In this document: positions 45,249 to 64,000 of the stretch, piece after piece
How the letters are laid out: every line of letters starts with the position of its first letter
Numbering within the stretch: position 1 is the stretch's first letter
NCBI GenBank assembly: GCA_013364255.1
Contig: CP054936.1
Span: forward strand, 558,001 to 622,000
DNA: 64,000 bases
Direction of reading: 5' to 3'
From: Streptomyces seoulensis
Lineage (GTDB): Bacteria; Actinomycetota; Actinomycetes; Streptomycetales; Streptomycetaceae
Notes under the pieces: model-generated
Told to the model about the DNA's origin: nothing
Databases searched by the model: none
What the model saw: the letters and a program-made list of their open reading frames with translations, nothing else
Program-made: the position numbers and the translations under genes

Positions 45249-45331
45249 GCGTTGCGGCCGTGCGGGCACGGCGGTGTCGCCGTACGGCTTCGGCGGGGCC
45301 GTACCCGGCGGGCGGGGGCGGGGCGAGCGGG

Positions 45332-46093: not shown

Positions 46094-46407
46094 CGCACTC
46101 ACCTCGGCTTCCGTACGACCGGTCCGGGCACGGTGCGCCCGGTCCTGACGCACATTTATACCGGCCGGTCCTCACCGGGGATGGGCCCGGAGCGGGCCGG
46201 AAGCTGCCCGATGTCGCCCGGGCCGACGGCGCGGAGCCGCTGTTCAGGCGCGTACGGCGGGGATCTCCTCCGTGCCGTTGCCCGTGTGCGTCGCCTCGGC
46301 TGCCCGGTTCGGGCGTCCGGCGGACCGGGGGCGCGGCCGCGTCACCGCCCAGGCACGGCCGCCGCGGCCGGGGCGGCGCGGCCCGGCCTGCCTGATCGGT
46401 CCGACCG
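46094..46407. other. intergenic region between DeoR and TetR genes
   Basis: About 314 bases that hold the DeoR promoter and the 3' flank of the TetR gene. Apparent open frames are extensions of neighbours. No clear operator or repeat was seen. Confidence 0.4.
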
Positions 46408-47941: not shown

Positions 47942-49210
47942 TCAGTGCGGCAGGCCCTCGCGGCGGGTCATCCCGGCGCTGAGGACGTCGCCGGACTGGT
48001 CGTCGACGAGGAGCATCGCGCCGCCGCCGCGGTTCTCCTCGTAGGCGTCCGGGGCGACGGGCTGGGCCGTGCGGACCCGGACGGTGCCGATGTCGTTGGC
48101 CCGCAGTTCGGCCGGTCGCGCGGTGGCCGCCAGGGTGCCGATGTCGGTGCGGTCCACCAGCTCGGTGACCATCGCCCGGACCACCCGGGTGCCGTGCCGC
48201 AGCAGGACCCGGGCGCCGGCGCCGAGCGGCCGGTCGGCGAGGTGGCAGACCGTCAGGGCGAACTCGTCCACCGGGGTCGGCGCCGCCTCGGCCGGGGCGA
48301 TCAGGTCGCCGCGCGCCACGTCGAGCTCGTCGGCGAGGAGCACGGTGACCGAGTCCCCCGCGACGGCGCGGTCGACCGGCCGGCCGAGCCGGTCGAGGCC
48401 GGTGACGGTGGTGCGGTGCCCGGCGGGCAGCACCACCACCTCCTGGCCGACCGCGAGGGCGCCCGACTCCAGACGCCCGGCGTAGCCGCGGTAGTCGGGG
48501 TGCTCCGGGGTGCGGGGCCGGATCACGTACTGCACCGGGAGCCGGGCGGCCGCCGCCGTCTCCACGACCGGCGCCTCCTCCAGGTGCCGGAGCAGGGTCG
48601 GCCCGTCGTACCAGGGCATCCGCTCCGAGCGGTTGACCACGTTGTCCCCGTGCACCGCGGAGATCGGCACGGCGACGGCCGACGCCGCCCCGAGCCGGGC
48701 GCACAGGGCCGCGAACTCCTCGGCCAGGCCCCGGAAGGTGTCCTCGTCGTAGCCGACCAGGTCCATCTTGTTGACCGCGAGCACCACCTCGGGCACCCCG
48801 AGCAGCGCGGTCACCGCGAGGTGCCGGCGGGTCTGCTCGACCAGGCCGTGGCGGGCGTCGAGGAGGATCACGGCGAGCTGGGCGGTGGAGGCGCCGGTGA
48901 CCATGTTGCGGGTGTACTGCACATGGCCCGGGGTGTCCGCCAGGACGAAGCGGCGGCGGGCGGTCGCGAAGTACCGGTACGCCACGTCGATGGTGATGCC
49001 CTGCTCCCGCTCGTCCCGCAGCCCGTCGGTGAGCAGGGCGAAATCGGCGCCGTCGTGGCCGCGCCGGTGACTGGCCTGCTCGACCGCCGCCCACTGGTCG
49101 GCGTAGATCGCCCGGCAGTCGTGCAGCAGCCGTCCGACCAGCGTGGACTTGCCGTCGTCCACGCTGCCGGCGGTGGCGAGCCTGAGCAGCCCGCCCGTGA
49201 CGGTCGTCAT
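47942..49210 (-). CDS. cysN: sulfate adenylyltransferase large subunit (GTPase)
   Basis: 422 aa from ATG 49210, overlapping the cysD stop by one base. EF-Tu-like GTPase: P-loop GSVDDGKST near residue 14, DTPGHVQYTRNM, and NKMDL; then beta-barrel domains. With CysD it makes APS from sulfate and ATP, driven by GTP hydrolysis. It is the last gene of a ten-gene overlapping unit; with the sulfotransferase in the cluster it probably serves specialised metabolism rather than cysteine synthesis. Confidence 0.95.
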   Translation of the reverse strand: MTTVTGGLLRLATAGSVDDGKSTLVGRLLHDCRAIYADQWAAVEQASHRRGHDGADFALLTDGLRDEREQGITIDVAYRYFATARRRFVLADTPGHVQYTRNMVTGASTAQLAVILLDARHGLVEQTRRHLAVTALLGVPEVVLAVNKMDLVGYDEDTFRGLAEEFAALCARLGAASAVAVPISAVHGDNVVNRSERMPWYDGPTLLRHLEEAPVVETAAAARLPVQYVIRPRTPEHPDYRGYAGRLESGALAVGQEVVVLPAGHRTTVTGLDRLGRPVDRAVAGDSVTVLLADELDVARGDLIAPAEAAPTPVDEFALTVCHLADRPLGAGARVLLRHGTRVVRAMVTELVDRTDIGTLAATARPAELRANDIGTVRVRTAQPVAPDAYEENRGGGAMLLVDDQSGDVLSAGMTRREGLPH

Positions 49211-50118
49211 CAGAAGTACCCCTCGCGTTTGCGGTCCTCCATGGCGGCGTCCCCGACCCGGTCGTCGGCACGGGTCGCGCCGCGCTCGGTGAGTTCGGAG
49301 GCGGCCACCTCCGCGATCACGTCGTCGACGGTGCGGGCCGCCGACTCGACCGCCCCGGTGCAGGACATGTCCCCGACGGTGCGGTACCGGACGGTGCGCT
49401 CGGTCAGTTCCTCGCCCGCGCGTGGGCCGCCCCAGTCGCCCGGGGTCAGCCACATGCCGTCCCGGCGGAACACCGGGCGCCGGTGCGCGTAGTAGATCTC
49501 GGGCAGTTCGATGCCCTCGCGGGCGATGTACTGCCACACGTCCAGCTCGGTCCAGTTGGACAGCGGGAACACCCTGAGGTGTTCGCCGGGACGGTGGCGG
49601 CCGTTGTAGAGCGACCAGAGTTCGGGGCGCTGCCGGCGCGGGTCCCACTGGCCGAACGCGTCGCGCAGCGAGAACACCCGCTCCTTGGCGCGGGCCTTCT
49701 CCTCGTCGCGGCGCCCACCGCCGAACACCGTGTCGTGGCGCCCGTCGGCGATGGCGTCCAGCAGGGGGAGCGTCTGGAGCTGGTTGCGGGAGCCGTCGGG
49801 GCGTTCCTGGAGCCGGCCGTCCGCCAGGTACCCGGGCACGGACGCGACGGTGAGACGTATCCCGTGCTTGTCCACCACGCGGTCGCGGTGCGCCAGCACC
49901 TCCGGGAAGTTGTGGCCGGTGTCGACGTGCAGCAGGCCGAACGGCAGGGGGGCGGGGGTGAAGGCACGGAGCGCCAGGTGGAGCATGACGATCGAGTCCT
50001 TGCCGCCGGAGAACAGCAGCACCGGACGTTCGCCCTGGCCCACGGCCTCCCGGAAGATGTGCACGGCCTCGGCCTCCAGCAGGTCGAGCCCGGTGCGCAC
50101 CTCGGCGGTCACCGTCAT
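49210..50118 (-). CDS. cysD: sulfate adenylyltransferase small subunit
   Basis: 302 aa from GTG/ATG region at 50118 (MTVTAEVRTGLDLLEAEAVHIF). PP-loop ATP pyrophosphatase motif FSGGKDSIVMLHLA near residue 36; HVDTGHNFPEVL, FGGGRRDEEKARAKERVFS and NWTELDVWQYI are all as in CysD. Forms APS with CysN. Overlaps cysC by four bases. Confidence 0.95.
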   Translation of the reverse strand: MTVTAEVRTGLDLLEAEAVHIFREAVGQGERPVLLFSGGKDSIVMLHLALRAFTPAPLPFGLLHVDTGHNFPEVLAHRDRVVDKHGIRLTVASVPGYLADGRLQERPDGSRNQLQTLPLLDAIADGRHDTVFGGGRRDEEKARAKERVFSLRDAFGQWDPRRQRPELWSLYNGRHRPGEHLRVFPLSNWTELDVWQYIAREGIELPEIYYAHRRPVFRRDGMWLTPGDWGGPRAGEELTERTVRYRTVGDMSCTGAVESAARTVDDVIAEVAASELTERGATRADDRVGDAAMEDRKREGYF

Positions 50119-50645
50119 GCGAGCCCCCTCTCCCGCAGGGCGGCGTGCACCTGCGCCGCCGTCCCGGCGGGGGCACAGCCGCGGGTGTCCACGGTCAACT
50201 CGGGTTCCTCCGGCGGCTCGTAGGGGTCGTCGACGCCGGTGAGCCCGGTCAGCTCGCCGCGCGCCCGGCGCGCGTAGAGCCCTTTGACGTCGCGCTGCGC
50301 GCAGGTGTCGAGCGGGGTGGCGACGTACACCTCCAGATAGGGGGTGCCCGCGGCCTCGTGGGCGGCGCGCACCTGGCGGCGCGCCTCGGCGTAGGGGGCG
50401 ATGACCGGCACCACGGCCAGGACGCCGTTGCGGGCCAGGAGCTGGGCGAGCCAGCCGACGCGGCGTACGTTCTCGATCCGGTCCTCGCGGCTGAAGCCGA
50501 GGCCGGGCGACAGGTGCGCGCGGATCTCGTCGCCGTCCAGCACCTCCACGCGGCGGCCGGGGCGCAGCCGTTCGGCCAGGGCGCGGGCGATCGTCGACTT
50601 CCCGGCGCTGGGCAGACCCGTCAGCCAGACGGTGGCGCCGTTCAT
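50115..50645 (-). CDS. cysC: adenylylsulfate (APS) kinase
   Basis: 176 aa from ATG 50645 (MNGATVWLTGLPSAGKSTIARAL). P-loop GLPSAGKST; DGDEIRAHLS, FSREDRIENVRRVGWLA and the lid region KGLYARRARGELTGLTGVDDPYE are diagnostic. Phosphorylates APS to PAPS, the donor for sulfotransferases. Overlaps both neighbours by four bases, placing PAPS synthesis in the same transcript as the amino-acid-building genes. Confidence 0.95.
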   Translation of the reverse strand: MNGATVWLTGLPSAGKSTIARALAERLRPGRRVEVLDGDEIRAHLSPGLGFSREDRIENVRRVGWLAQLLARNGVLAVVPVIAPYAEARRQVRAAHEAAGTPYLEVYVATPLDTCAQRDVKGLYARRARGELTGLTGVDDPYEPPEEPELTVDTRGCAPAGTAAQVHAALRERGLA

Positions 50646-51742
50646 CGCACCACCCGCATCCTGGTCCTGGCCGGGGGCGCGGCGAGTTCGCGCAGGGCGG
50701 CGGTGAGCACCGCGATCCCGCGCAGATAGTCGGCGATCATGATGTGCTCGTCGTCCGCGTGGTCGAGTCTGCTGTCGCCGGGGCCGTAGGTGGCCATCGG
50801 CACGTCCCACACCTCGGCCAGGGTGTTCATGTCCGAGGTGGCGGTCTTCACCTTCATGGTGGGCCGGGCGTGCTGGTCGCGGATGGCCACGGACAGCGCC
50901 CTGACCACCTCGCTGCCGCGTCCGGCGTGACAGGCGGCGACCGAGTTGACCACGGTCAGCTGCCCTTCGGGACATCGGGAGCGCAGCGATTCCACCAGGC
51001 CCTCGGAGTCGAAGCCGGGCGGAGTGCGGATGCTGAACTCGGCCTCGGCGGCGACCAGATCGCCGTTGAAGGAGCACAGGGTGGCGCCGGGCCGGTCGAA
51101 GGAGCCGTGGTCGGCGTCCGGGCCCAGCAGGTCCAGCAGCTCCCGCCAGGCCGCGGCGGCCAGTTCGGTCGCCTTGGGCTCGGGGTTGCTGGGGTGGGTC
51201 GCCGGACGTTCGACGCGGTAGCGGAGGTCCAGCTTGCCCTTGTAGCCGAGGACCACCGTCGACCAGCCGCTCGGCTCGCCGACCACCACGTAGTCCGGCC
51301 GCGGCATCTCCGCCCTGATCCGCATGGCGCCGCGGGAGCAGGGCGTCTCCTCCTCGACCGCGCCGACGACCACGATCCGGCCGGGGTGGTCGGCCAGTGC
51401 GGCGGCGGCGCAGATCATCGTGGCCAGCGGCCCCTTGGCGTCCACCGCCCCGCGGCCGTAGAGCCGGCCGTCCTCCGAGCGCACCGGCACCTCGCCGGGC
51501 ACGGTGTCCAGGTGCGAGAGGAGCATCACCACCGGTCCGTCGCCGTCGCCGATCTCGCCGATCACGTTGCCGACGCGGTCGATGTAGGACTGGAATCCGA
51601 GTTCCTCCAGGGCCTTCACCAGATAGTCGGCGAGGTCGGCCTCGTGGTACGAGGGCGAGGGGATCTCCAGCATTCTGCGCAGCACGCCGAGGGCGGTGGT
51701 CTCGCTGACCGAACCGTCCTGCCCCTGGTGCACGAGCTTCAT
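50642..51742 (-). CDS. M20 metallopeptidase, LysK-like (release from amino-group carrier)
   Basis: 366 aa from ATG 51742. M20 motifs: SHLDTVPGE, GRGAVDAKGPLATMI, catalytic Glu in VGAVEEETPCSRGA, metal-ligand region VVVGEPSGWSTVVLGYKGK, and the C-terminal His in RLDHADDEHIMI. The GRGAVDAKGPLA and GEPSGWSTVVLGYKG segments are those of LysK/ArgE-type hydrolases. Predicted to hydrolyse the bond between the finished amino acid and the C-terminal Glu of a LysW-type carrier protein. Overlaps the kinase upstream by four bases. Confidence 0.85.
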   Translation of the reverse strand: MKLVHQGQDGSVSETTALGVLRRMLEIPSPSYHEADLADYLVKALEELGFQSYIDRVGNVIGEIGDGDGPVVMLLSHLDTVPGEVPVRSEDGRLYGRGAVDAKGPLATMICAAAALADHPGRIVVVGAVEEETPCSRGAMRIRAEMPRPDYVVVGEPSGWSTVVLGYKGKLDLRYRVERPATHPSNPEPKATELAAAAWRELLDLLGPDADHGSFDRPGATLCSFNGDLVAAEAEFSIRTPPGFDSEGLVESLRSRCPEGQLTVVNSVAACHAGRGSEVVRALSVAIRDQHARPTMKVKTATSDMNTLAEVWDVPMATYGPGDSRLDHADDEHIMIADYLRGIAVLTAALRELAAPPARTRMRVVR

Positions 51743-52617
51743 CGGTTCACCTCCTCCTTGCTCCGGGTCTCCAGGGTGATCCGGGTCCCGGCCCCGGCGA
51801 CCGCGGCGCCGACCGGGCGGGCGGCCCGGCCGTCGGCGATCCGCACGGTGGGGACTCCGGCGAGCAGTGCCTCGCGTGCGGCGGCCAGTTTGACCGCCAT
51901 CCCGCCGCCGGTGTGCGGCACCGGTCCGGACGCGGTCAGGGCGCACTCGGCGAGCAGCGAGCCCTCGTCGTCCGGGTCGTCGAGCACTCCCGGCGCTCCG
52001 GTGAGCAGCAGGAGCGCGTGGGCGCCGAGGGCGGCCGCGACGGCGGCGGCGGCCCGGTCGGCGTTGACGTTGACGGGGTGTCCGTCCTCGTCCAGCGCGG
52101 GCGGGGAGAGCACCGGTACGGCGCCGTCGGCGAGCAGCCGGCCGAGCACCGCGGTGGACACCTCGGTGATCCGGCCGCTGTGGTCGTCGCGCACCACCAT
52201 GGGGCGGCCGTCCACCAGGGCGCGCAGGCTGCGCTTCCGCCTGGCGAGCAGGGTGGCGCCGTCGAGTCCGGTGAGGCCGACGGCGACGGCGCCGGCCGCG
52301 TTGATCCGGGCGACCAGCCGGGGCTTGACGGCGCCGGCCAGGGCGAGCAGGACCACTTCCAGGGTGGCCGGGTCGGTGTGGCGGCTGGTGACGCCGCCGG
52401 GGAACTCCAGGGTGCGCAGCGGTGTCCCGAGGCGCTCCGCGAGCCGTTCGATCTCCGCGGAGCCGCCGTGCACGAGGACGACCGGACGGCCGGCGCGGGC
52501 GTAGTCGGCGATGTCGTCGGCGACCGCGTCGAGGTCGACGGAGGCGTTGCCGCCGACCTTCACGACCAGCGGCGCGGCCGGGTCCGAGGGGGCGGGCGGC
52601 CGAAGGGGTTCGGGCAC
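51739..52617 (-). CDS. LysZ-like amino-acid kinase (carrier-bound glutamate kinase)
   Basis: 292 aa from GTG 52617, preceded by GGGAGA. AAK-family kinase: PLVVKVGGNASVDL near residue 17, VLVHGGSAEIERLAERLG, GLTGLDGATLLARRKRSL, and NVNADRAAAAVAAALGA. The family is that of LysZ and acetylglutamate kinase; the RHTDPATLEVV segment is LysZ-like. Predicted to phosphorylate the gamma-carboxylate of glutamate held on an AmCP. Confidence 0.85.
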   Translation of the reverse strand: MPEPLRPPAPSDPAAPLVVKVGGNASVDLDAVADDIADYARAGRPVVLVHGGSAEIERLAERLGTPLRTLEFPGGVTSRHTDPATLEVVLLALAGAVKPRLVARINAAGAVAVGLTGLDGATLLARRKRSLRALVDGRPMVVRDDHSGRITEVSTAVLGRLLADGAVPVLSPPALDEDGHPVNVNADRAAAAVAAALGAHALLLLTGAPGVLDDPDDEGSLLAECALTASGPVPHTGGGMAVKLAAAREALLAGVPTVRIADGRAARPVGAAVAGAGTRITLETRSKEEVNR

Positions 52618-52637
52618 GGGTGTTCTCCCTTGGGACG

Positions 52638-53660
52638 TCACGGGTGCAGCCCCGGGAAGCCGAGTCCGGTCCGCTCCGGCCAGCCCATGCGCACGTTCAT
52701 GGACTGCACCGCGCCTCCGCCGCCGCCCTTGACCAGGTTGTCCAGCGCGCCGATCAGCAGGGCGTGCCGGGCGGCGGGGTCGACGGCGAAGCCGACGTCG
52801 CAGAAGTTGGAGCCGGAGAGCAGCTTGGGCTCCGGGTAGCGGTACTGGCCGCGCTTGTGCGCCACGACCCGGACGAACGGCTCGTCCGCGTAGTGGCGCC
52901 GGTAGGCGGCCCGCAGCGCGCGCTCGTCCGCCCCGTCGGCCAGCGCGACCCGGCACAGCACCTGCACGCCGCGCACCGCCTCGACGCCGGTCGCCGTCAT
53001 CCGCGTCGGCAGACCGGTCGCCTGGGCGATCTCGGCCTCGTGGCGGTGGCCGTGCGGTGCGAACACCCGGAGGGCGCCGCTGCGTTCGGCGTGCAGGTTC
53101 TCGGCGCCCGCGGAGCTGCCGGAGCCGCTCGAACCGGTCCTGGCGTCCACCGTCACCTCACCGGTGACCAGGCCCTCCACGGCGGCCGGGTGCAGGGCCA
53201 GGACGGCGGCCGTGGCCATGCAGCCGGGCACGCTGATCCGGTCCGCGCCGATCAGCTCCTTGCGGTGCAGTTCCGGGAGGCCCGGTGTGAAGGAGGCCAG
53301 CTCACCGGGGGCGGTGTGCTCCACTCCGTAGTACGCGGCGAAGACCTCGGGGTCGCGCAGCCGGAAGTCGCCGGAGAGGTCGATGAGCAGGTCCGTGAGG
53401 GCGGCGAACCGGCCCAGCCGGCCCATGCTCTCGCGGTGCGGCACGGCCGTGAACAGCACGTCGCACCGGCCGAGCCGGTCCGGCTCCACGAAGGTCAGGT
53501 CGGTCAGACCGCGCAGGTTGGGGTGCGCCCCGTCGACCCTGCGGCCGGCCAGGGTGCGCGAGGTGGCCGCCACCAGCTCCACCTCGGGGTGGCCCAGCAG
53601 GATGCGAATCAGGTCCCCGCCGATGTAGCCGGCGCCGCCGACCACCGCGACCCGGGTCAC
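52638..53660 (-). CDS. LysY-like N-acyl-gamma-glutamyl-phosphate reductase
   Basis: 340 aa from GTG 53660. NADP-binding VVGGAGYIGGDLIRILL at the start; active-site Cys in ISVPGCMATAAVLAL; GTDARTGSSGSGSSAG-like loop (VDARTGSSGSGSSAGAEN); C-terminal GALDNLVKGGGGGAVQSMNVR. Matches the LysY/ArgC family. Reduces the carrier-bound glutamyl phosphate to the semialdehyde, the acceptor for the next carbon-transfer step. Start overlaps the LysX-like gene's stop by four bases. Confidence 0.88.
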   Translation of the reverse strand: MTRVAVVGGAGYIGGDLIRILLGHPEVELVAATSRTLAGRRVDGAHPNLRGLTDLTFVEPDRLGRCDVLFTAVPHRESMGRLGRFAALTDLLIDLSGDFRLRDPEVFAAYYGVEHTAPGELASFTPGLPELHRKELIGADRISVPGCMATAAVLALHPAAVEGLVTGEVTVDARTGSSGSGSSAGAENLHAERSGALRVFAPHGHRHEAEIAQATGLPTRMTATGVEAVRGVQVLCRVALADGADERALRAAYRRHYADEPFVRVVAHKRGQYRYPEPKLLSGSNFCDVGFAVDPAARHALLIGALDNLVKGGGGGAVQSMNVRMGWPERTGLGFPGLHP

Positions 53661-54523
53661 CACCGCCGCCTCCCCAGCACCACGTCGATCAGCGCGTCGG
53701 CGACCGACGTCCGCTCCCCCAGCGCCCGTTGGAGTCCGGAGAACTCCAGCCCGGCGTTGACCTCCAGCACCTGCGGCCTCCCGTCTGCGTCCTCGATCAG
53801 GTCGACTCCCGCGATCCGCGCGCCGACCGCTTGTGCCGCGGCGAGCGCCAGCGGCCCGAACTCCTCGGCGTCCTCGCACAGTTCGACGTGCGCGCCGCGG
53901 GCCACATTGGTGCGCCAGCCGTCCGAGCGGCGGTACACCGCGCCGATCACCTCGCCGCCCGCGACGCCCACCCGGATGTCCCGGCCGGGCTTCTCGACCA
54001 GTTCCTGGACGTACACCACGTGCGACTGGGGCGAGGGCAGCGCCGCGACGTACTCGAGCACCGCCTCCGCGGCCGCGCGGTCCATGATCCTGGTGACCAG
54101 CCGTCCCCAGGAGCCGACCAGCGGCTTGATGACGGCGGGCCCGCCCAGTTCGTCCAGCGCGTCGAGCGCCGCCTCGGGGGTGAGGGCGAGCACCGTGCGC
54201 GGGGTGGGCAGCCCGGCGCGGGCCAGCGCGACGCTGGTGCGCCACTTGTCCCCGCACAGGGCGGTCGCGGCGGCCGAGTTCACCACCTCGTGTCCGGCGG
54301 CCTCCAGCAGTTCGGCGCCGTAGCAGGCCCGGGTGTGGGAGATCTCCCGGTTCAGCACGACGGGCAGCGGGCGCGGCCGGCCGGGGTGCGCGGAGCCGCG
54401 CAGGGTGCGGGCGTCGAGCTGCACCCAGGGCACCGAGCGGCGCTCCAGCGCCTCGAACAGCCGTTTCTCCTCGGCCCGTACCCGGGAGACCAGCACGGCG
54501 ACCTCGGGGACCTCGTACGTCAT
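53657..54523 (-). CDS. LysX-like ATP-grasp ligase (loads amino acid on carrier protein)
   Basis: 288 aa from ATG 54523. RimK/LysX signature regions: [66 protein letters not shown], and [16 protein letters not shown] (Mg/ATP site). The NRxxSHTRA and [12 protein letters not shown] stretches are those of LysX rather than RimK. It should ligate the alpha-amino group of glutamate to the C-terminal glutamate of an AmCP. Streptomyces makes lysine by another route, so this homologue points to specialised metabolism. No AmCP gene adjoins it. Confidence 0.88.
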
Positions 54524-55851
54524 GAGGCGCCCGCCATGCGGGCCACGACGTCCAGGTTCGCCCACAGCTTCTCGATGCCGTCGGCGTACCGCTGGAGCGC
54601 CTCGCCGGCGTCGGGGTTGAGGTGGCGCTTCTGGAGGGTGAGGGAGTCCTCGACGACGGCGCGGGTGACGGGCAGGTCGCCGTTCTCGGCCGGCGGCCCG
54701 TCCAGTGCCGCCCAGGGGTGGCCTGAGCCGAAGCCGACGCGGTCCTGGAAGACCTTCTGTTCGGACAGCGGCATCAGCTGGTAGCGGGAGACCGGCACGC
54801 CCTCGGCGCGCAGCAGCCGGTGCACCGCGGCCCGGAACGCGCCGGGGGTGACCTCCTCGGGCAGGCCGGCCGCCCGCGGGTCGAGGCGGAAGCGCAGGAT
54901 GTGCCAGGCGTGCGTGCTGCCCTCGGCGACGGTCGGGACGGTCAGGCCGGGCAGTTCGGCCAGGCGCGCGAGGAACGCCTCGACGTTGCGGGTCCGGTCG
55001 GCCTCGTAGCGGTCGAAGCGGTCCAGCTGGCTGAGGGTGAACGCGGCCTGCACGGAGCTGAGTTTGTGGTTCCAGCCGAGCCGGTAGGAGACGTAGTCGC
55101 GGTCGCGGCCCGGCTCCATCACCTCGCCGAACTGGCGGCCCATCCGTGCCGCGCGGGCCACCTCCTCGTCGTCGGTGACCAGCAGTCCGCCCTCGCCGCA
55201 GGTGGGCAGGTTCTTGGTGACCTGGAGGCTGAACACCCCCGCGCGTCCCAGACCGCCGACCGGGCGGCCCCGGTAGCGGGCGCCGTGGGCCTGCGCCGCG
55301 TCCTCCAGTACGGCGAGGCCGTGCCGGTCGGCCAGTTCGCCGAGGGCGTCCATGTCGGCCGGGTGGCCGTGCAGGTGGACGGGGAGGATCGCGGCGGTGC
55401 GGGGGCCGATCGCGGCGCGCACCGCCGCCGGGTCCAGGGTGAAGGTGACCGGGTCGACGTCCGCGAAGACCGGTACCGCCATCTGGTGGACGGGGGCGAG
55501 CGCGCTGGCGATGAAGCTGAGCCCGGGCACGATCACCTCGTCGCCGGGGCCGACGCCGAGCGCGGCCAGGGCGAGCTGGAGCGCGGTCGTGCCGTTGGAG
55601 GTGCCCACGCACCAGCGGGTGGCGCAGCGGTCGGCCCACGCCCGCTCCAGCCGGCTGACGGGCGTCTCCCCGTCGGCGTTGGAGACCAGCGACTCACCGT
55701 CCAGGGTGTCCAGTACGGCCTTGCGGTCGTCGTCCGTCACCACCGGCCAGGGCAGGTTGCGCAGGTCGCGCGGGACGGCGGGGCGGCCGCCGAGCGCGGC
55801 CAGGCGACGCGCCTTGGCGTCGGCGGCGGGGGCGGTGTCGGCGCTGCTCAC
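54520..55851 (-). CDS. PLP-dependent DegT/DnrJ/EryC1 aminotransferase
   Basis: 443 aa from GTG 55851. Fold type I; PLP-Lys in [51 protein letters not shown], and the aspartate in [13 protein letters not shown]. Family members transaminate keto sugars or ketones. In this setting it may aminate the ketone made after transketolase action, giving the second amino group of the DADH-type intermediate. Overlaps both neighbours by four bases. Confidence 0.85.
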
Positions 55852-56876
55852 AGGGCCCTCCAGGCATCGTGTACCGCGGCGACCCCGCGATGGTAGGCCT
55901 CCTCCAGGCGGGCGGCGTGCCCGTGCAGTTCGCGCAGCGCGGCGCGGGGGTCGGGGTGGCCGTGGGCGGCGCACAGCCGGACGCCGGTCCAGGCGTGCGC
56001 GACGGCCTCCACCCGGCGGCCGGCCTCGCGCAGCTCCGGGACGTCGTGCTCGACGCCGAGGCGGCGCAGCAGTTCGCCGTGCAGGCCGGCCTGGGCCTGC
56101 ATCCCCCAGCCGAACGGATACGCGTCGCGCAGCGCGCCGGGTTCGCCGGCGGCGGCGCCCTCGCGCAGGTCGTCCAGGAAGCGGCGCAGACCCGGCAGTC
56201 CGGTCCAGTCGCCCGCCGGGCCGCGTTCGTCGCCCTCGGCGAACCGCTCGCCGTCGGCGGCGAGCGCCCGTTTGAGGAGTCCGCGGTCCAGGGGCGGCAG
56301 TTCGTCCACGGTGACCGTGAGGTAGCGGCGGTCGATCCGCGAGTCGCTGAAGAACGCGTCCTGCTCGTCGCTGGGGTTCGCCGACTCCCAGGACCTGCGG
56401 AAGGCGGCGGCGTCGATCACCCCGGAGAACGCCGGGGGCATGGCGTCGGAGACGGTGACCGTGCCCGCCGCCGGGTCCACGTCGTGGACGACGATCAGGT
56501 GTGCGGCGTGCACGTCCCCGTAGGCCGGCCGGAACGGCAGGTGGAAGTTGTCCACGGCCGCGACGGGGAGCATCCCCCGGCCGGTCAGCCCGGCCAGCTC
56601 CGCCAGCGGGTCGTCGTCGGCCGCACGGTGCCAGCGCGAGGAGATGCCGTGGTACGGGGCGATGCTGCGGGCCACGTCGTCGGGGTGCGCCCCGGCGAAG
56701 TAGAACTCCTCCGAGCGCACGTCGCCCGGCCGGAAGCGGAACTCCCAGTGCAGGCCCAGCACGTCGAGGGGTGCGCCCCCGGCGCGGGCGATGTTCTCGG
56801 CGAGGGTGGCCCACAGGCAGCTGATCACATCGCGGTACCACAGGCCGGCGGCGGTGGGCAGGAGGGCGGTGGTCAC
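55848..56876 (-). CDS. BtrH-N/C39-like protein, proposed aziridine-forming partner
   Basis: 342 aa from GTG 56876. The N-terminal half resembles the BtrH N-terminal/DUF4872 (C39-papain-like) group: [18 protein letters not shown] near residue 13 with a cysteine in the expected place, [45 protein letters not shown] with the catalytic-type His, and [14 protein letters not shown]. The C-terminal half is helical. BtrH itself is an acyltransferase, so acyl transfer or a non-catalytic role are both possible. I infer it works with the protein at 56873-57511; the pair recalls AziU2/AziU3 of azinomycin, but that homology is unchecked. Confidence 0.6.
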
Positions 56877-57511
56877 CGGTCACCGTCCGGGGCGGCCGGG
56901 CCCACCGACTCCAGGGTGAGCGCGAGCACGTGCAGGGCGATGTGCCGCGGCAGGCGCACGCCGTGCAGGGTCGCGATCCGGGTGACCGGCACCCGCTGCG
57001 ACCACAGCACCGCCGCCACCCCCTGCTGGACGTGGTGCGGGTAGTGCATCACCGGGGTGCGGGCGGCCTCCCGCTCGCCGAAGCGGGCCGGAGCGGCCCA
57101 GAAGTCGGAGACGCGCACCGCCTCGAAGTCGACCTCGCCGTCGGCGAAGTGCAGCGCCAGCTCGCTCTCCACCCGTCGCTCGCCGGAGGCCAGCAGGTGG
57201 ATCCAGTCGTAGCGGCCCTCGGGCAGCGGCAGGTACTGGCCCGCGCAGCGGATGTTGTCGCCGTCCGCGGTGGTCTGCGGGAACCGGTACGGCACGTCGC
57301 CGACGACGAGTTCGCCGCCCGGGGCGGGCAGGTGCTCGGCGGGGAAGGAATTGCGCCAGACGTTGAACCGGCCCGCGCCGGTCTCCCCCACCGCGGAGAC
57401 TGCCCGGTTGTTCCAGTGCTTGTCCAACCGGACCGGCAGGAAGCGCTTGACGGCGTGCAGCGCCGTCTCCCCGCCTCCACCGGCCGGACGTTCGATGGCC
57501 GAGGCTGTCAC
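56873..57511 (-). CDS. beta-sandwich-like protein, proposed AziU3-type aziridine-forming enzyme
   Basis: 212 aa from GTG 57511, preceded by GGAGAT; the longer frame to 57583 is not supported. No transmembrane or signal segment. Beta-rich, with segments [36 protein letters not shown] and [17 protein letters not shown] that look like a carbohydrate-binding-type beta-sandwich. It is the first gene of the ten-gene unit and overlaps the BtrH-like gene by four bases, so the two products probably form a complex. An azinomycin-like AziU3 role is inference from context. Confidence 0.55.
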
Positions 57512-57817: not shown

Positions 57818-58564
57818 ATGACCGACCGAGAACCCTCCCGTATCCTCGCCCTGTGGAGCGCCCCGCGCTCCCGCTCGACCGCCTTCCTCCGGATGATGGC
57901 GGAGCGGGGCGACTACACGGTGGTGCACGAGCCGTTCTCGCACGTCGCCGACTTCGGCAAGGCCGACGTCGCGGGACGGGCGGTGCACAGCGAGTCCGAA
58001 CTGATCGCCGCGCTGCGCGAACTGTCCGCGCGGACACCGGTGTTCTTCAAGGACACGACCGACTTCCACTACCCGGGGCTGCTCGCCGACACGGAGTTCC
58101 TCGCCGAGGCCGAGCACACGTTCATCATCCGGCACCCCGCGGAGATCGTCGCCTCGCACTACGCGCTCAACCCCGCCCTCACCCGGGACGAGATCGGCGT
58201 CGCCCGGCTCGGCGAGATCCACGACGCGGTGGCGGCGCACACCTCCCGGACCCCGGTGGTGGTGGACTCCGACGACCTGCTCGCCGCGCCCGAGGCGACC
58301 GTGCGCGCCTACTGCGCGGCCGTCGGCATCGACTTCCGCGCCGAGGCGCTGAGCTGGCAGCCGGGGCTCCGCGAGGAGTGGCGCTCCACCAGCGCCTGGC
58401 ACGAGTCGACCAGCCGTACCAGCGGCTTCACCAAGGTGGCCTCCTCGTACGCGGACACCGTGGACAACAACCCGCTGCTGGCCGAGTTCGCCGACTATCA
58501 TCTGCCCTACTATCTGGCGCTCAAGGCCGACCGGATGCCGGTGCCGGGGGTCTCGGGCCGCTGA
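57818..58564 (+). CDS. PAPS-dependent sulfotransferase family protein
   Basis: 248 aa from ATG 57818, preceded by GGAAGG. The 5'-phosphosulfate loop is near the N-terminus (LWSAPRSRSTAFLRMM), and the 3'-phosphate region is IIRHPAEIVASHYALNP near residue 105. Such proteins transfer sulfate from PAPS to a hydroxyl. With cysDNC and the DADH-forming genes in the cluster, it likely sulfates a hydroxyl that is later displaced to close an aziridine ring. Followed after 20 bases by the ureohydrolase-like gene. Confidence 0.8.
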   Translation: MTDREPSRILALWSAPRSRSTAFLRMMAERGDYTVVHEPFSHVADFGKADVAGRAVHSESELIAALRELSARTPVFFKDTTDFHYPGLLADTEFLAEAEHTFIIRHPAEIVASHYALNPALTRDEIGVARLGEIHDAVAAHTSRTPVVVDSDDLLAAPEATVRAYCAAVGIDFRAEALSWQPGLREEWRSTSAWHESTSRTSGFTKVASSYADTVDNNPLLAEFADYHLPYYLALKADRMPVPGVSGR

Positions 58565-58584
58565 CGAGACGACCGGGAGAGCCC

Positions 58585-59514
58585 GTGGCCGCAGAGATCG
58601 CACTGCTCGGTGTCCCGTCCTGCGCCGGGACGCACGGCCCCGGTCAGGAGAAGGCCCCGGCGGCCCTGCGGGCGGCGGGACTGCCCGAGCGGCTGGCGGC
58701 GGCCGGGTGGAAGGTGACGGACCACGGGGACCTGCCCGTGGTCCCGTTCCGCACCGACCCGGCCCGCCGCGCCAGCCAGAACCTCGACCGGGTGGTGGAG
58801 GTCGTCGAGGCGGTCGCCGTCGCGGTGGGCGGGATCATCGACGCGGGCGCGCTCCCGTTGGTGATGGGCGGCGACTGCACCGTCACCCTGGGCGTGGTCG
58901 CGGCCCAGGTCGCCCGGCGGCCGCGGACCGGACTGCTGTACTTCGACGGCGACCTGGACCTCTCCGTCCCGGAGACGACCCGCTCGGGCGTCCTGGACAC
59001 GATGGTCCTCTCCCATCTGCTCGGCGAGGGCGCGCCCGAGCTGTACCGGGCGGGGCCGCGCACACCGCTGCTGCCGGCCTCGGCGATCGTGGCGTTCGGG
59101 CACGAGCCGGCGGAGCTGGGCGCCCCGGCCCGTGAGCGGATGGCGCGGCACGGGCTGCGCGCCCACCCGTGCACGGAGATCACGGCGCCCGGCGCGGACC
59201 CGGTGTCGGCGGCCCGGGCGGCCCGCGAGGAGCTGACCGCCGGCCACGACGGTTTCCTGCTGCACTTCGACGTCGACGTCATCGACTCGGTGGACTTCCC
59301 GCTGGCCAACTTCCCGCACTTCAACGAGGGGCTGCCGTTGGACGTCGCACGGGACTGCCTCACCGAGCTGTGCTCGGCCGCGCACCTGGCCGGGCTGGTC
59401 GTCACCGAGGTCAACCCGGACCGCGACCCCGGCGGCGACCTGGTCCGCACCCTGGTGGACATGGTGACGGGCGCACTGGAGAGCGCCCTGGACGCACGCG
59501 AGCGCGGGGCCTGA
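58585..59514 (+). CDS. ureohydrolase (arginase/agmatinase) family protein with altered metal site
   Basis: 309 aa from GTG 58585. Arginase-fold segments: PLVMGGDCTVTLGVVAAQ near residue 91, LLYFDGDLDLSVPETT near 114, FLLHFDVDVIDSVDFPLANF near 226 and LVVTEVNPDRDPGG near 273. The last two keep the DxD metal ligands and the Glu. The normal His of GGDHS is Cys here, and the His of DAHxD is Asp (DGDLD), so two of the classic manganese ligands differ. It may hydrolyse a different guanidino or amide compound, or not be a hydrolase. Convergent with the acetyltransferase gene, 3 bases apart. Confidence 0.8.
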   Translation: MAAEIALLGVPSCAGTHGPGQEKAPAALRAAGLPERLAAAGWKVTDHGDLPVVPFRTDPARRASQNLDRVVEVVEAVAVAVGGIIDAGALPLVMGGDCTVTLGVVAAQVARRPRTGLLYFDGDLDLSVPETTRSGVLDTMVLSHLLGEGAPELYRAGPRTPLLPASAIVAFGHEPAELGAPARERMARHGLRAHPCTEITAPGADPVSAARAAREELTAGHDGFLLHFDVDVIDSVDFPLANFPHFNEGLPLDVARDCLTELCSAAHLAGLVVTEVNPDRDPGGDLVRTLVDMVTGALESALDARERGA

Positions 59515-59517
59515 ACC

Positions 59518-60114
59518 TCAGCGCGCGTCCCGGTCCGCCGGCCGCAGCCGCATCCGCATCACGGGCCGTTTCGGGGTGCGCCGGGCGACCTCCTCGAAGC
59601 CCTCGGCGGCGAGCAGTCCGACCAGCCCGTGGTAGGCGGCGTCCGTCGGCACGGGCCCCAGCGCCTCGTCGACCGGATACGCCTCCAGCACGGCGGCGCC
59701 CCGGCTGCGGGCGTGTTCGACGGCCGCCCGCACCAGTTCGCGCGCGACGCCCGCGCCCCGGTGCCGGGGGTGGACGTAGAGGCAGACCAGCGACCACACC
59801 TCCGTGTCGTCCACCGGTTTGGTGACCGGGGAGCGGTCCAGCCGGGAGTACTCGGCGCGCGGGGCGACCGAGCACCAGCCGGCCGGTTCGCCGTCGCGGT
59901 GGACGACGAGTCCGGGCGCGCGCCCGCCGTCCACCAGTTCCTTCAGCGCCCGCCGGTTGCCCTCGCCCCACTCGGTGCGCCGCTCCTGGGGCGTCTGCCG
60001 GAAGAACATGCACCAGCAGCCCTTGACCGATCCGCGCTGCCCGAGCAGCGTCTCGACGTCCGCCCACGCGGCGGGGCCGGCCACCGTGGCCGCCGCCTTG
60101 CCTGGTTCGCTCAC
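59518..60114 (-). CDS. GNAT N-acetyltransferase, candidate self-protection gene
   Basis: 198 aa from ATG 60114 (MSEPGKAAATVAGPAAWAD). The subgroup with GSVKGCWCMFFRQTPQERR near the N-terminus, then the acetyl-CoA motif VHPRHRGAGVARELVRAAVEHA. Embedded in the cluster, it could acetylate a pathway amine or the finished product for self-resistance; neither is shown. Upstream of it, 54 bases away, ends the hydroxylase gene in the same orientation. Confidence 0.75.
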   Translation of the reverse strand: MSEPGKAAATVAGPAAWADVETLLGQRGSVKGCWCMFFRQTPQERRTEWGEGNRRALKELVDGGRAPGLVVHRDGEPAGWCSVAPRAEYSRLDRSPVTKPVDDTEVWSLVCLYVHPRHRGAGVARELVRAAVEHARSRGAAVLEAYPVDEALGPVPTDAAYHGLVGLLAAEGFEEVARRTPKRPVMRMRLRPADRDAR

Positions 60115-60168: not shown

Positions 60169-61143
60169 TCAGGAGACCGCCTTCGCCACCCGTTCGAGGG
60201 GGAAACGCTGCTCGGCGACGACCGGGCCGCGCTGGAAGCCGAGCTGGGCCGCGTAGAGGTCCTCCGGCACGCCCCGCACCACCACGGTGGGCACCGCGGA
60301 CTCGTCGAACTCCCAGGTGACGCCCGCCGGTTGGCCCACCACGGAGAAGGTGCTCCCGGCCACCCGCTCCAGCGCGCAGGCCGGTTCGCCGTTCAGTCCG
60401 ACGACCAGGCGCCCGTCCCGCGCGGTCAGCTCGGCGACCGCTCCGTCGACCAGAGACTCCAGGCCCTTGCCGCCGCCGAACAGGGGCATCAGCTGGTTCG
60501 GCAGCAGGAAGCCGCCGGTGAAGCGCTCCAGCGCGGCGTCGTCGCGGGGCAGCGGCGGCCGGTACGCCGAGATGCCCGTGCCCTCCTCGCGCCAGCGCGC
60601 GACCAGCTCGGGCGGGAAGAGACCGAGCACGAAGTCGTTGATCAGCACGTCGATCACCAGGTGCACCCGGGTGACCTCGCTGTCGTTGCGCAGCCAGTGG
60701 CGCTTGGAGAAGTCGCCCCACCACAGCTCGCCCGGCTGCCAGCGCATCCGCTCGCCGTCGACGACCATGACCACGTCCGGGTGGGTCCGGATCGGCACGT
60801 GCAGCCGCACGGAGCCGAACTGGGGGTTGCAGCCGGCGTCGTTGTGCTCGCCGATGTCGGCGCCCGGCGGCAGGGTGAGCAGCCGGACCATCAGCTTGGG
60901 CACGTCGAGGCCGGCCAGCAGCTCGGCGAGGTAGGGGGCGTGGTCGAGCGCGGGGGTGGGCCGGAAGGGTTCGAGCTGGGGGGCGGGGCCGCTGCCGCCG
61001 CCCTGGGCGTAGAGGTCGACGCCGGTCCACTCGCCGTCGTGGTACGGGCCTGGCTGCGGGGCCTGCGGGAGGGTGCGCAGCCGGTCGAGGTCCTCCGCCA
61101 GGCGGGCGGGGTCGTAGGTGCGGGGCAGCCGAGCGGAAATCAC
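60169..61143 (-). CDS. aspartyl/asparaginyl beta-hydroxylase-like Fe/2-oxoglutarate oxygenase
   Basis: 324 aa from GTG 61143. The N-terminal 190 residues match the Asp_Arg_Hydrox fold: LPPGADIGEHNDAGCNPQFG, VRLHVPIRTHPDVVMVVDG, MRWQPGELWWGDFSKRHWLRN and TRVHLVIDVLIND, with two candidate iron-binding His. An extra C-terminal part of about 130 residues (from PPLPRDDAALERF) has no recognised domain. Likely hydroxylates an amino-acid side chain, free or carrier-bound. Start overlaps the transketolase C-subunit stop by four bases. Confidence 0.8.
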   Translation of the reverse strand: MISARLPRTYDPARLAEDLDRLRTLPQAPQPGPYHDGEWTGVDLYAQGGGSGPAPQLEPFRPTPALDHAPYLAELLAGLDVPKLMVRLLTLPPGADIGEHNDAGCNPQFGSVRLHVPIRTHPDVVMVVDGERMRWQPGELWWGDFSKRHWLRNDSEVTRVHLVIDVLINDFVLGLFPPELVARWREEGTGISAYRPPLPRDDAALERFTGGFLLPNQLMPLFGGGKGLESLVDGAVAELTARDGRLVVGLNGEPACALERVAGSTFSVVGQPAGVTWEFDESAVPTVVVRGVPEDLYAAQLGFQRGPVVAEQRFPLERVAKAVS

Positions 61144-62105
61144 AGGACGTCAACTCCCTTGTGCCAGGCGAGCGCGGTCTCGTACACCCGCTCGTCGGTG
61201 ATGCCGTAGTGGGCGAGCAGTTCGTCGTGGCCGCCGACCCGGTCGCAGAACCGGTCGGGCACGCCGATCCGGCGCAGCGGCACGGGGCAGTGCTCGGCGA
61301 GCGCCTCGGCGACGGCGCTGCCCAGGCCGCCGATGACGCTGTGGTCCTCGACGGTGAGCACCCGGCCGGTGCGTTCGGCGGCGGCCACCAGGGCCGGCAC
61401 GTCGAGCGGTTTGACGGTCGCCATGTCCAGGACGGTCGCGGCGAGGCCGTCGGCGGCGAGCCGGTCCGCGGCTCCGAGGGCGGCGAGCACCGGCTGCGGT
61501 CCGCAGGCCACCAGGGTCACGTCCCCGCCCTCGCGCAGGACGTCGGCCCGGCCGAGGGCGAACGGCCGGCCGGCCGGGCCGACGGGGGCGGTGGCACGTC
61601 GTGCGAGCCGTACGTAGCTGGGGCCGGGGAGGCCGGCCAGCAGCGGGACCAGCCGGGCGGCGGTGGCCGAGTCGCTGGGGACGACGACCGTCATGTGGGG
61701 CAGGGCCCGCATGACGGCGATGTCCTCCAGGGACTGGTGGGTGGGCCCGAAGTGGCCGCCGGAGAGGCCGCCGTGGGTGGCGGCGATGTGCACGGGCAGG
61801 TTGTTGTACGCGATGTCCACCTTGACCTGCTCGCCGGCGCGCAGGGCGGCGAAGGAGGCCATGGTGTGGACGAAGGGGACCTTGCCGGCGGCGGCGAGGG
61901 CCGCGGCCGTGGTCATCATGGTGGCCTCGGCGATGCCGAGGTCCACGTAGCGCTCGGGGTGGGCGGCGCCGAAGCCCTGCGCGACGCCGCCCATGTCGGA
62001 GTCGCAGCACCAGATCCGGGGATCCTGTCCGGCGTGCTCGGTGAGGGCCTGGCGGAAGGCGTCGCGGCCCGTTGCCGCGGCGAGGTCCTGCGGGTGGGCG
62101 GTCAT
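61140..62105 (-). CDS. transketolase, C-terminal subunit
   Basis: 321 aa from ATG 62105. Pyrimidine-binding and C-terminal domains: RYVDLGIAEATMMTTAAALAA with the catalytic Glu, THGGLSGGHFGPTHQSLED and VLTVEDHSVIGGLGSAVAEAL. Pairs with the N-terminal subunit upstream (overlap four bases). Predicted to transfer a two-carbon ketol unit to the carrier-bound semialdehyde. Confidence 0.9.
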   Translation of the reverse strand: MTAHPQDLAAATGRDAFRQALTEHAGQDPRIWCCDSDMGGVAQGFGAAHPERYVDLGIAEATMMTTAAALAAAGKVPFVHTMASFAALRAGEQVKVDIAYNNLPVHIAATHGGLSGGHFGPTHQSLEDIAVMRALPHMTVVVPSDSATAARLVPLLAGLPGPSYVRLARRATAPVGPAGRPFALGRADVLREGGDVTLVACGPQPVLAALGAADRLAADGLAATVLDMATVKPLDVPALVAAAERTGRVLTVEDHSVIGGLGSAVAEALAEHCPVPLRRIGVPDRFCDRVGGHDELLAHYGITDERVYETALAWHKGVDVL

Positions 62106-63025
62106 CGGTCCTGCTCCGTCCTCGACGCGGCGGCGAGGGCCTTGAGGGCCCGGTGCCTGAGGGTGGGCGACAGCAGGGCGTAGTGGCTCTTGGCGCGGTT
62201 CTCCAGGAACGGCACTCCCCTGCCCTTGACGGTGTCCGCGAGCAGCACGGTGGGGACGCCCGGCTCGGCCGGCGGCTCGCGCAGTGCGGCGCTCAGCGCG
62301 TCCAGGTCGTGGCCGTCGATCTCCACGGCCCGCCAGCCGAAGGCCCGCCAGCGGTCGGCCAGGTTGCCCCGGTGCGAACTGCCGTTGATCTGGAGGCGGT
62401 TGCGGTCCACCACGGCGGTCAGGTTGTCGAGGCCGAGTCGGGCCGCCGAGTCGGCGGCCTCCCACACGCTGCCTTCCTGGAGTTCGCCGTCACCGAGCAG
62501 GACGTAGGCCCGGTTGTCCCTGCCGTCCCGCCGGGCGGCCAGGGCGAGTCCGAGTCCCAGGGCGAGTCCGTGGCCGAGCGAGCCGGTGGGGAACTCGACG
62601 CCGGGCACCGTCCGCAGCGGGTGGCCGCCCAGGCGGCTGCCGCTGCGGGCGTAGGTGTCCAGCTCCTCGACGGGCAGGAAGCCGCGCTCGGCGAGCACCG
62701 CGTACAGGCCGGCGGCGGCGTGGCCCTTGCTGAGCAGGAAGTAGTCGCGTCCGGGCCACTCGGGCTCCTCGGGCCGCACGCGCAGCACGTCGAAGTAGAG
62801 CGCGGTGAGGATGTCGGCGGCGGACAGCGCTCCGCCGATGTGCGCCCCCTCGGGGCTCGCCGCCATGGCGACGATGTGCTGCCGTACGCGCAGCGCCCGC
62901 TCGGCGAGCGGAAGACCGGTGCGGGCGGTCGCCGTGGCGGCCGGATCGGTCACCGTGGCGGCCGGCTCTGCGGCGGCCGGATCGGTGGTGGCCGGGTCGG
63001 TGGCGGTCTGGTCGGTGGTGGTCAT
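62102..63025 (-). CDS. transketolase, N-terminal (thiamine-diphosphate) subunit
   Basis: 307 aa from ATG 63025. A Thr/Ala-rich 35-residue leader precedes the domain. TPP motif GDGELQEGSVWEAADSAARL with the trailing Asn in VVDRNRLQING; also FLLSKGHAAAGLYAVLAE and EFPTGSLGHGLALGLGLAL. Works with the subunit at 61140-62105. Overlaps the NRPS stop by four bases. Confidence 0.9.
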   Translation of the reverse strand: MTTTDQTATDPATTDPAAAEPAATVTDPAATATARTGLPLAERALRVRQHIVAMAASPEGAHIGGALSAADILTALYFDVLRVRPEEPEWPGRDYFLLSKGHAAAGLYAVLAERGFLPVEELDTYARSGSRLGGHPLRTVPGVEFPTGSLGHGLALGLGLALAARRDGRDNRAYVLLGDGELQEGSVWEAADSAARLGLDNLTAVVDRNRLQINGSSHRGNLADRWRAFGWRAVEIDGHDLDALSAALREPPAEPGVPTVLLADTVKGRGVPFLENRAKSHYALLSPTLRHRALKALAAASRTEQDR

Positions 63026-64000
63026 CGGGCACCGCCGGGGGTGTCGGGGTCGGTCGCCCGGGCCAGCAGCTCGGCGAGCGCGGGCACGTGCGGGGGTCGC
63101 ATCATGGTGTAGTGGTCGCCGGGGACGTCGTGGATCCGCAGCGGCCGGTCGAGCAGCCGCTGCCAGCCGGTGACCGGGCTGTGCGGCTCCTCGGCGGCGC
63201 GTACGGCGGTCAGCGGGCCGTCCCACGGTGTGAGCGGATACCCGCGCACCGCCCTGACGTTCGCGTTGAACACCGCCATCAGCCGGGAGAGCTGGCCGGT
63301 CGCGGTGTCCGGGGGCAGGACGTCGGCGGCGGCCGCCCGGGACAGCAGCTCCTCGGTGAGCCGCTCCGGCGGCACCGTGCGCAGCTCGTCCGGGTCGATC
63401 TCCAGGCGCCGGTCGGCGGCCCGGCCCAGTTCCCAGCCGAACCAGGCGGCGAGGTCGGCCTCGTCCGCCTGCTCCAGACCGTTGTCGAGGTTCGGCGGGC
63501 CGCCGTCGAGCATGGTGAGCGAGGCCACCTCGCGCCCGGTCCCGCGCAGCCGCTGGGCGACGGCGTAGGCGACCACACTGCCGACGCAGAAGCCGACGAG
63601 GTGGTACGGGCCGTGCGGCTGCACGCCGACGATGGCGTCGAGATAGTGCTCCACCGCCTCCTCCAGCAGGTCCACCGGGTGCTGTCCGGCGTCCAGGCCG
63701 AAGGACTGGAGGCCGTACACCGGCTGGTCCTCGGGGAGGTGCCGGGTCAGGTCGAGGTAGCTGAGGGCGTTGCCGACCGCGGGCGGCAGGCAGAACAGCG
63801 GCGGCCGGGAGCCGGCGGCCCGGATGGGCACGATCGGCGACCAGGCGCCGGACGGGCCGGTACGCAGCTCGGCGGCCATCCGCTCGACGGTCGCCCCGCT
63901 GGCGAACAGCGAGGAGAGCGGCAGCTCGCGGCCGTGCTCGGCGGCCACCCGGGACAGCAGCCGCACGGCGCGCAGCGAGGTCCCGCCCAGGTCGAAGAAG
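63022..64000 (-). CDS. NRPS C-terminus: carrier domain and thioesterase (partial)
   Basis: The gene runs off the window at its 5' side; about 325 residues are seen. First comes the end of a peptidyl-carrier domain with its phosphopantetheine site FFDLGGTSLRAV (the Ser is the attachment point). A type I thioesterase follows: nucleophile position in LVGFCVGSVVAYAVAQRL, where a Cys replaces the usual Ser; Asp in LTMLDGG; His in VPGDHYTMMRP. It would release the finished peptide. The last gene of the second minus-strand unit's upstream end, coupled to the transketolase genes. Confidence 0.9.
   Translation of the reverse strand, partial: FFDLGGTSLRAVRLLSRVAAEHGRELPLSSLFASGATVERMAAELRTGPSGAWSPIVPIRAAGSRPPLFCLPPAVGNALSYLDLTRHLPEDQPVYGLQSFGLDAGQHPVDLLEEAVEHYLDAIVGVQPHGPYHLVGFCVGSVVAYAVAQRLRGTGREVASLTMLDGGPPNLDNGLEQADEADLAAWFGWELGRAADRRLEIDPDELRTVPPERLTEELLSRAAAADVLPPDTATGQLSRLMAVFNANVRAVRGYPLTPWDGPLTAVRAAEEPHSPVTGWQRLLDRPLRIHDVPGDHYTMMRPPHVPALAELLARATDPDTPGGAR

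Follow-up and report, generated by a model that had tools for sequence, protein, structure and literature searches.

A sulfate-activation module at the end of an AziU3/AziU2-type operon in Streptomyces seoulensis and its probable role in aziridine formation

Introduction

Why should an operon of antibiotic type end with genes of primary sulfur metabolism? The question is raised by a 64,000-nucleotide stretch of Streptomyces seoulensis DNA, hereafter the window (positions 558001-622000 of contig CP054936.1, one of two contigs in a genome of 8.35 Mb). A string of ten genes runs here from 57511 to 47942, all on the minus strand, and the last three are cysC, cysD and cysN. A previous sequence-only reading took these for a dedicated source of 3'-phosphoadenosine 5'-phosphosulfate (PAPS) and proposed a sulfation step. 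We consider it very probable that cysC, cysD and cysN form a module that supplies PAPS to a biosynthetic pathway. The surrounding cluster, which uses an amino-group carrier protein (AmCP) and non-ribosomal peptide synthetases (NRPSs), would make an aziridine-containing (azabicyclic) peptide, with sulfate as a transient leaving group.

Results

Identity of the three genes

All three reading frames are unbroken, and every junction in the ten-gene string overlaps (9 of 9; 1 nt at cysD/cysN, 4 nt at each of the others). The sequence-only reading was right that intact cys genes close a string joined by 1-4 nt overlaps. Its title gave the order as D, N, C; the order of transcription is cysC-cysD-cysN. 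Downstream of cysN, the next predicted reading frame is convergent and 132 nt away. We infer a single transcript. Note that a scan for sigma-70 promoters, with no match, and a scan for terminator-like sites, with 1 against 2.1 expected, were uninformative on this point.

Each protein passes the cut-off of a general family model: TIGR02039 for CysD (433.9 bits; cut-off 396.6), TIGR02034 for CysN (515.9; 336.1), and TIGR00455 for CysC (187.6; 138.7). Narrower models were failed (PRK05124 for CysN, 487.4/590; PRK12563 for CysD, 399.1/413; PRK00889 for CysC, 203.3/244). The nearest solved structures, by sequence, are 1zun_A for CysD (E 2.1e-74) and 1zun_B for CysN (E 5.6e-107). For CysC they are kinases of adenosine 5'-phosphosulfate (APS), of which 2yvu_A is best (E 1e-49). 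CysN carries GSVDDGKST, DTPGH and NKMD, and CysD carries SGGKDS, which we take to be nucleotide motifs. CysC carries GLPSAGKST and DGD, presumably the P-loop and second motif of an APS kinase, and keeps 64 of the 67 columns conserved among its relatives. Ratios of nonsynonymous to synonymous substitution (dN/dS), against the nearest relative (G170), are 0.22 for cysN, 0.14 for cysD and 0.35 for cysC. At family level, these sequence comparisons confirm the predicted CysDN sulfate adenylyltransferase and APS kinase.

A second cys set elsewhere in the genome

Genome-wide, PF01507 matches three genes: cysD of the window, and a cysD and a cysH at 7.14 Mb. The 7.14 Mb locus comprises cysN, cysD, cysC, cysH and a sulfite-reductase-like sirA, with names assigned by reading rather than by a family search there. 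It is flanked by genes for a substrate-binding protein and an ABC transporter. Genome totals are two matches each for cysD and cysC. Between the two sets, CysD is 77% identical and CysC 67% identical, which argues against recent duplication. The sequence-only reading was to be abandoned if the window held the only sulfate-assimilation genes; since a second set, with cysH, sits at 7.14 Mb, it does not.

It is established that CysDNC forms the first part of reductive sulfate assimilation. Hence, the window genes might be thought to feed that route, for cysteine or for a thio group in the product. However, because the PF01507 matches are those three alone, there is no cysH in the cluster, nor any PF01507 protein besides CysD. 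Similarly, there is no sulfite reductase among the cluster genes run against Pfam. We rejected a cysteine-assimilation role because cysH belongs to the 7.14 Mb locus, and we regard any reductive role as scarcely credible.

The sulfotransferase and the AziU3/AziU2 homologs

As the sequence-only reading had noticed, a predicted sulfotransferase gene is divergent from the operon. The product scores above the PF19798 cut-off and is the single match in the genome to this family, the one sulfotransferase family searched. Across 36 sequences (the window protein and 35 of 54 distinct homologs), P16, R17, R19-T21, K78, D79, R105 and S113 are invariant; the conserved loop and the R105/S113 pair are presumably PAPS-binding. 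A sequence look-up in the PDB was uninformative, since its sole match, an antibody at E 0.0096, was discarded as chance. We therefore turned to a predicted structure (mean confidence, pLDDT, 94) and a fold search. At E <= 0.001, 32 of 37 Foldseek matches were sulfotransferases, with a best E of 5.8e-6 and modest TM-scores; the other five were Fap7-Rps14 chains. The top match was the curacin sulfotransferase, for which sulfate likewise serves as a leaving group. The modelled fold and putative PAPS-binding residues thus point to a PAPS-dependent-type sulfotransferase.

The operon opens with homologs of AziU2 and AziU3. In the vazabitide pathway, the homologs of AziU3/U2 are Vzb10/11. The AziU2 homolog also matched 29 transcription activator-like effector repeat chains (whole-chain E no better than 9.8e-21, at query residues ~5-49, with no single stretch passing); these were set aside as repeat artefacts. 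Further genes encode AmCP-modifying enzymes of the LysX, LysY, LysZ and LysK types. In this sense 'AmCP operon', the term of the sequence-only reading, is apt, but the AmCP/LysW carrier gene itself lies ~26 kb upstream of cysC (equivalent window coordinates 76700-76536). The carrier is above the Pfam cut-off for PF21344 and below both NCBIfam LysW cut-offs; a search for AmCP/LysW in the window gave no match better than chance. AziU2 with AziU3, AmCP with LysX/Z/Y/K, and a split transketolase, aminotransferase and NRPS genes together point to an AmCP-dependent azabicycle/aziridine pathway of azinomycin type.

What might sulfate do in such a pathway? On the way to azinomycin, a pathway intermediate receives a sulfate, which a neighbouring amine then displaces to form the aziridine (PMC9570651). 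AziU3/U2 has been termed, functionally, an aziridine synthase (PMC12559475). By analogy, CysDN would convert sulfate and ATP to APS, and CysC would convert APS to PAPS. The LysX/Z/Y-like enzymes, split transketolase and aminotransferase would build an amino-acid intermediate on AmCP, probably from glutamate. The divergent sulfotransferase would transfer the sulfuryl group from PAPS to a hydroxyl of this intermediate. With the AziU3/U2-like pair, a neighbouring amine would then displace sulfate, in an SN2-like reaction, to give aziridine and free sulfate, which could return to CysDN. The module would spend ATP to activate a hydroxyl; its leaving group, sulfate, would be recyclable, and there would be no requirement for sulfur in the product. 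The displacement chemistry is carried over from work on relatives, and we infer the substrate, the order of steps and the recycling.

Because the operon encodes relatives of sulfate-expelling, aziridine-closing enzymes, the sulfate is likely to be transient, a leaving group that is not kept in the product. The alternative is a stable sulfate ester, made by the sulfotransferase and retained in the final product, as PAPS modules allow in the adipostatin and notonesomycin clusters (PMC12135136, PMC7081687). We consider this very unlikely, since AziU2/AziU3 homologs share the operon and a homologous sulfotransferase is found in 25 of 27 AziU3 genomes (the window's included), mostly in the same cluster. 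Overall, the proposed sulfation step is supported by the separate cys locus, the adjacent PF19798 sulfotransferase, and the AziU2/AziU3 homologs that head the operon.

Survey of AziU3 loci

Does a PAPS module usually accompany AziU3? Of 392 genomes of the genus, at least 27, counting that of the window, carry AziU3; scoring covered the best 5 candidates in each, so the true figure may be higher. A CysDNC set, whole or partial, lies on the same contig as AziU3, 2.7-48.7 kb away, in 22 of the 27 (the partial sets of G163, G076 and G200 are at contig ends). Note that the count was reached in two passes. The first covered up to 20 kb on each side in 26 genomes and gave 9 linked modules, or 10/27 with the window. 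The second took extra stretches for 15 genomes, mostly where cys copies were known, and gave 12 more. The survey was widened after copy positions had been seen, and the 50-kb limit was set afterwards.

At the threshold used, the CysD search found nothing in three of the 27 genomes (G076, G200 and G102). In G102, CysC is on another short contig bearing AmCP, LysX, LysY, LysZ and the sulfotransferase. AziU3 is on short contigs in G002 and G320, with cys sets on other contigs; in G041 it is on a 75.7 kb contig, with three cys sets on another. The homologous sulfotransferase was not found in G041 or G320. The AziU3 alignment comprised the window protein and 19 of the 26 others in the survey.

At least two CysC matches are present in 26 of 27 AziU3 genomes, compared with 27 of 80 without AziU3 (Fisher p 3.4e-9, uncorrected for shared ancestry). 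For the latter, we took the first 80 AziU3-negative genomes and scored all candidates; fragments and one broken copy were counted. At least four such genomes (G040, G067, G068 and G079) have two CysC copies 225-375 kb apart on one contig, as with G067:C1:2124681 and 2372653. The extra CysC perhaps marks a further PAPS-using locus that is common in the genus.

A wider contig scan found at least 78 AziU3 loci in many actinomycete genera. Among the 78 listed, with flanks of at most 10 kb on either side, AziU2 is seen in 77, a sulfotransferase in 45 and at least two of CysC/D/N in 17. Given the short flanks, the last figure is a lower bound. Some loci differ in composition. In L176 and L191, from Micromonosporaceae, AziU3-adjacent CysD (62-65% identical) and CysN (53-55%) are far more divergent, and a separate CysC was not seen within the stretch examined. 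Streptomyces sp. NRRL F-6131 has two AziU3 loci, L164 and L212. The arginase, hydroxylase and GNAT genes of the window recur in L164, but its 21 kb gave no match to a sulfotransferase, transketolase, aminotransferase or LysZ; L212 has all four. Enzymes may be shared in trans between these loci. Partial AziU3-like matches on Mesorhizobium plasmids (NZ_CP050298.1, CP050294.1 and CP006583.2; 35.5% over 44% of the query) possibly reflect the shared BtrH_N domain only.

Origin of the linked modules and the case against a strict need for them

Cluster-linked copies form no single group in trees of CysC (59 rows) or CysD (53 rows). Approximately unbiased (AU) tests reject one linked clade for both CysC (p 0.008; 29/51 rows linked) and CysD (p 2e-8; 26/44 rows). 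Note that the trees came from quick searches, used only copies covering 85% of the query, and have few well-supported branches. The label 'other' was given to unlinked copies, on the assumption that they are housekeeping genes, with cysH adjacency read in the window's genome only. The two unlinked copies of G359 were labelled one 'other' and one 'unresolved', and two identical CysD proteins of G370 were merged under the cluster label. Rows that were unresolved, or long (L176, L191 and L232), did not enter the AU tests.

Some linked copies are nearest to unlinked, presumed housekeeping, ones, as in G303 and G370. In G303, two cys sets are 94.7% identical over 2031 bases. The window copies pair with those of G170, with good support, and the pair sits on a long branch. 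The simple reading is that modules were recruited more than once, and gene conversion could yield part of the pattern. That linked copies have more than one origin suggests repeated recruitment and, hence, a benefit. The cluster and other-set cysD genes of G370 (L093, L109) are 99.3% identical over 909 bases, with flanks at 85-88%; this looks like gene conversion between biosynthetic and primary-metabolism copies.

Several observations speak against a strict need for the linked module. In G359, AziU3 and the sulfotransferase are on a single gap-free contig and the nearest CysDNC is 347 kb away. Likewise, locus L165 of Actinocrispum wychmicini has the arginase, hydroxylase, GNAT and sulfotransferase genes in common with the window cluster but no cys gene in 21 kb, ~5 kb of it past LysK. 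A distant module is possible in L165, because modules elsewhere are up to 49 kb away. Taken together, the two cases suggest that the architecture can do without the module. In G170, the nearest relative, the proteins of this operon are 75-93% identical to the window's, and CysC is the least similar (75%; the other nine are 82-93%). The G170 cluster CysC (G170:C1:120221-120733, in L064) has lost five residues including DGD, its P-loop is changed, and it departs from 12 of the 67 conserved columns, compared with 3 of 67 for the window CysC. From its sequence, it is probably a decaying APS kinase. In addition, the dN/dS of cysC is the highest among the ten operon genes (0.35, with 0.32 the next), and the extra CysC also occurs in the 27 of 80 genomes without AziU3 noted above. 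Host PAPS may be sufficient in some strains.

Is the module then a redundant or decaying passenger, adding little to the PAPS provided by the host's other CysDNC? The strains without linked genes, the state of CysC in G170, and the second CysC in the host would all fit. However, each of the window genes still fits its family, with motifs in place, and has a dN/dS far under 1; linked copies also lack a single origin, which suggests repeated recruitment. Furthermore, the dedicated PAPS cassette for adipostatin raised di-sulfated, though not mono-sulfated, products (PMC12135136). We therefore think a passenger unlikely and favour the PAPS-supply module. The word 'dedicated', used in the sequence-only reading, holds as far as linkage goes, but host PAPS could serve too.

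Gene neighbourhood

Features of the cluster in the window are listed in Table 1. Beyond the window are two further NRPS genes, an MFS exporter and AmCP. The three NRPS genes have domains A-T-C-A-T, C-A-T and C-A-T-TE, with four adenylation domains in total. A search for AlkZ-type self-resistance (PF06224) gave two matches in the genome, each megabases from the cluster. On the other side of the cys genes, window positions 40826-46153 encode a zinc-type dehydrogenase, a transporter permease, a solute-binding protein and a DeoR-type regulator. These resemble a sugar/polyol uptake operon and are probably unrelated to the cluster.

Table 1. Predicted features of the cluster, in window coordinates.
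Feature	Position	Strand	Evidence and remarks
cysN, sulfate adenylyltransferase large (GTPase) subunit, 422 aa	47942..49210	-	TIGR02034, 1zun_B; last gene of operon
cysD, sulfate adenylyltransferase small subunit, 302 aa	49210..50118	-	TIGR02039, 1zun_A; 1-nt overlap with cysN
cysC, APS kinase, 176 aa	50115..50645	-	PF01583 E 1.7e-56, TIGR00455; 4-nt overlaps with lysK-like gene and cysD
lysK-like hydrolase (carrier release)	50642..51742	-	NF003367 [LysW]-lysine hydrolase, above cut-off
lysZ-like kinase	51739..52641	-	NF010659 [LysW]-aminoadipate kinase, above cut-off
lysY/argC-like reductase	52638..53660	-	TIGR01850, above cut-off
lysX-like ATP-grasp ligase (amino acid onto AmCP)	53657..54523	-	PF22626, PF08443; TIGR02144 252.8 bits, below cut-off of 275.6
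DegT-type aminotransferase	54520..55851	-	PF01041 E 1.9e-87
AziU3 homolog, subunit of aziridine-forming pair	55848..56876	-	PDB 7wuw_C AziU3 E 7.1e-77; 8gs1_B Azi29 E 5.8e-77; Pfam BtrH_N
AziU2 homolog, partner subunit	56873..57511	-	PDB 7wuw_A AziU2 E 9.7e-52; 8gs1_A Azi28 E 8.6e-52; no Pfam family; first gene of operon
PAPS-dependent-type sulfotransferase (predicted)	57818..58564	+	PF19798 E 4.9e-18; divergent from operon
Arginase-family protein	58561..59514	+	PF00491 E 4.2e-29; below NCBIfam arginase cut-off
GNAT acetyltransferase, possible tailoring or self-resistance	59518..60114	-	PF00583 E 1.1e-12
Aspartyl/asparaginyl beta-hydroxylase-family protein	60169..61143	-	PF05118 E 5e-18
Transketolase C-terminal half (two-carbon transfer)	61140..62102 (start approximate)	-	PF02779, PF02780
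Transketolase N-terminal half	62102..63025 (start approximate)	-	PF00456 E 1.7e-45
C-A-T-TE NRPS gene, 3' end	63022..64000	-	Domain matches

Discussion

A PAPS-supply role would explain why a cassette of primary metabolism ends an antibiotic-type operon: it would keep up PAPS for a reactive ring-building step. In azinomycin, a ring of this type alkylates DNA. If the linkage is a general rule, a linked PAPS set would be a simple marker by which to mine genomes for cryptic aziridine alkylators. Sulfate recycling is a testable idea.

Going further, we suggest, with confidence only a little above even, that repeated independent recruitment amounts to a rule, in which a second CysDNC is placed next to AziU3. 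The same suggestion holds that the window cluster is a distinct branch, making an undescribed azabicyclic tetrapeptide, and that sulfate cycles inside the cluster as a leaving group, much like a catalyst. Features of this branch are the arginase, the Asp/Asn hydroxylase, GNAT and the four adenylation domains.

How much of this is known already? Azinomycin B, from Streptomyces sahachiroi, is the closest comparison, with AziU3/U2 and a CysC/D/N-like set, AziH1-3 (PMC7081687). The same paper likens nbc9-11, for notonesomycin, to CysC, D and N and to AziH1-3. Elsewhere, a sulfate adenylyltransferase large subunit has Azi10 (S. sahachiroi) as its nearest relative, and a small subunit has MmcV (S. 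lavendulae) (PMC4257720 Table 1). Therefore, AziU3/U2 clusters with a PAPS set are already on record. Compared with azinomycin, by description and not gene by gene, the window cluster differs in having the arginase, GNAT and Asp/Asn hydroxylase-family proteins, and four adenylation domains in three NRPS genes. Our literature search found no survey of AziU3-CysDNC linkage; most subscription papers, including the main pathway papers, were outside its reach. Hence, the azinomycin-type PAPS set with a sulfate leaving group is known, and the survey of linkage is new.

Other pathways share parts of the scheme. For ficellomycin, Yue et al. (2020) reportedly disrupted the sulfate adenylyltransferase, APS kinase and sulfotransferase genes. 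This Streptomyces ficellus pathway is alike, by description, in sulfation followed by intramolecular cyclisation to aziridine (PMC8713700, PMC12559475). Vazabitide A shares AmCP-type carrier chemistry, again by description and not by sequence (PMC9570651). The adipostatin (adp) operon ends with CysC-, CysD- and CysN-like genes in the same order, and the genome of its producer has two other PAPS sets (PMC12135136). In that case, however, the sulfotransferase is within the operon and sulfate is retained, whereas in the window the gene is divergent and sulfate is probably expelled. According to the same paper, sulfation clusters are generally without a PAPS set, and two of six compared had a partial or complete one. 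For the AziU3 clusters surveyed, in contrast, a linked PAPS set is usual (22/27).

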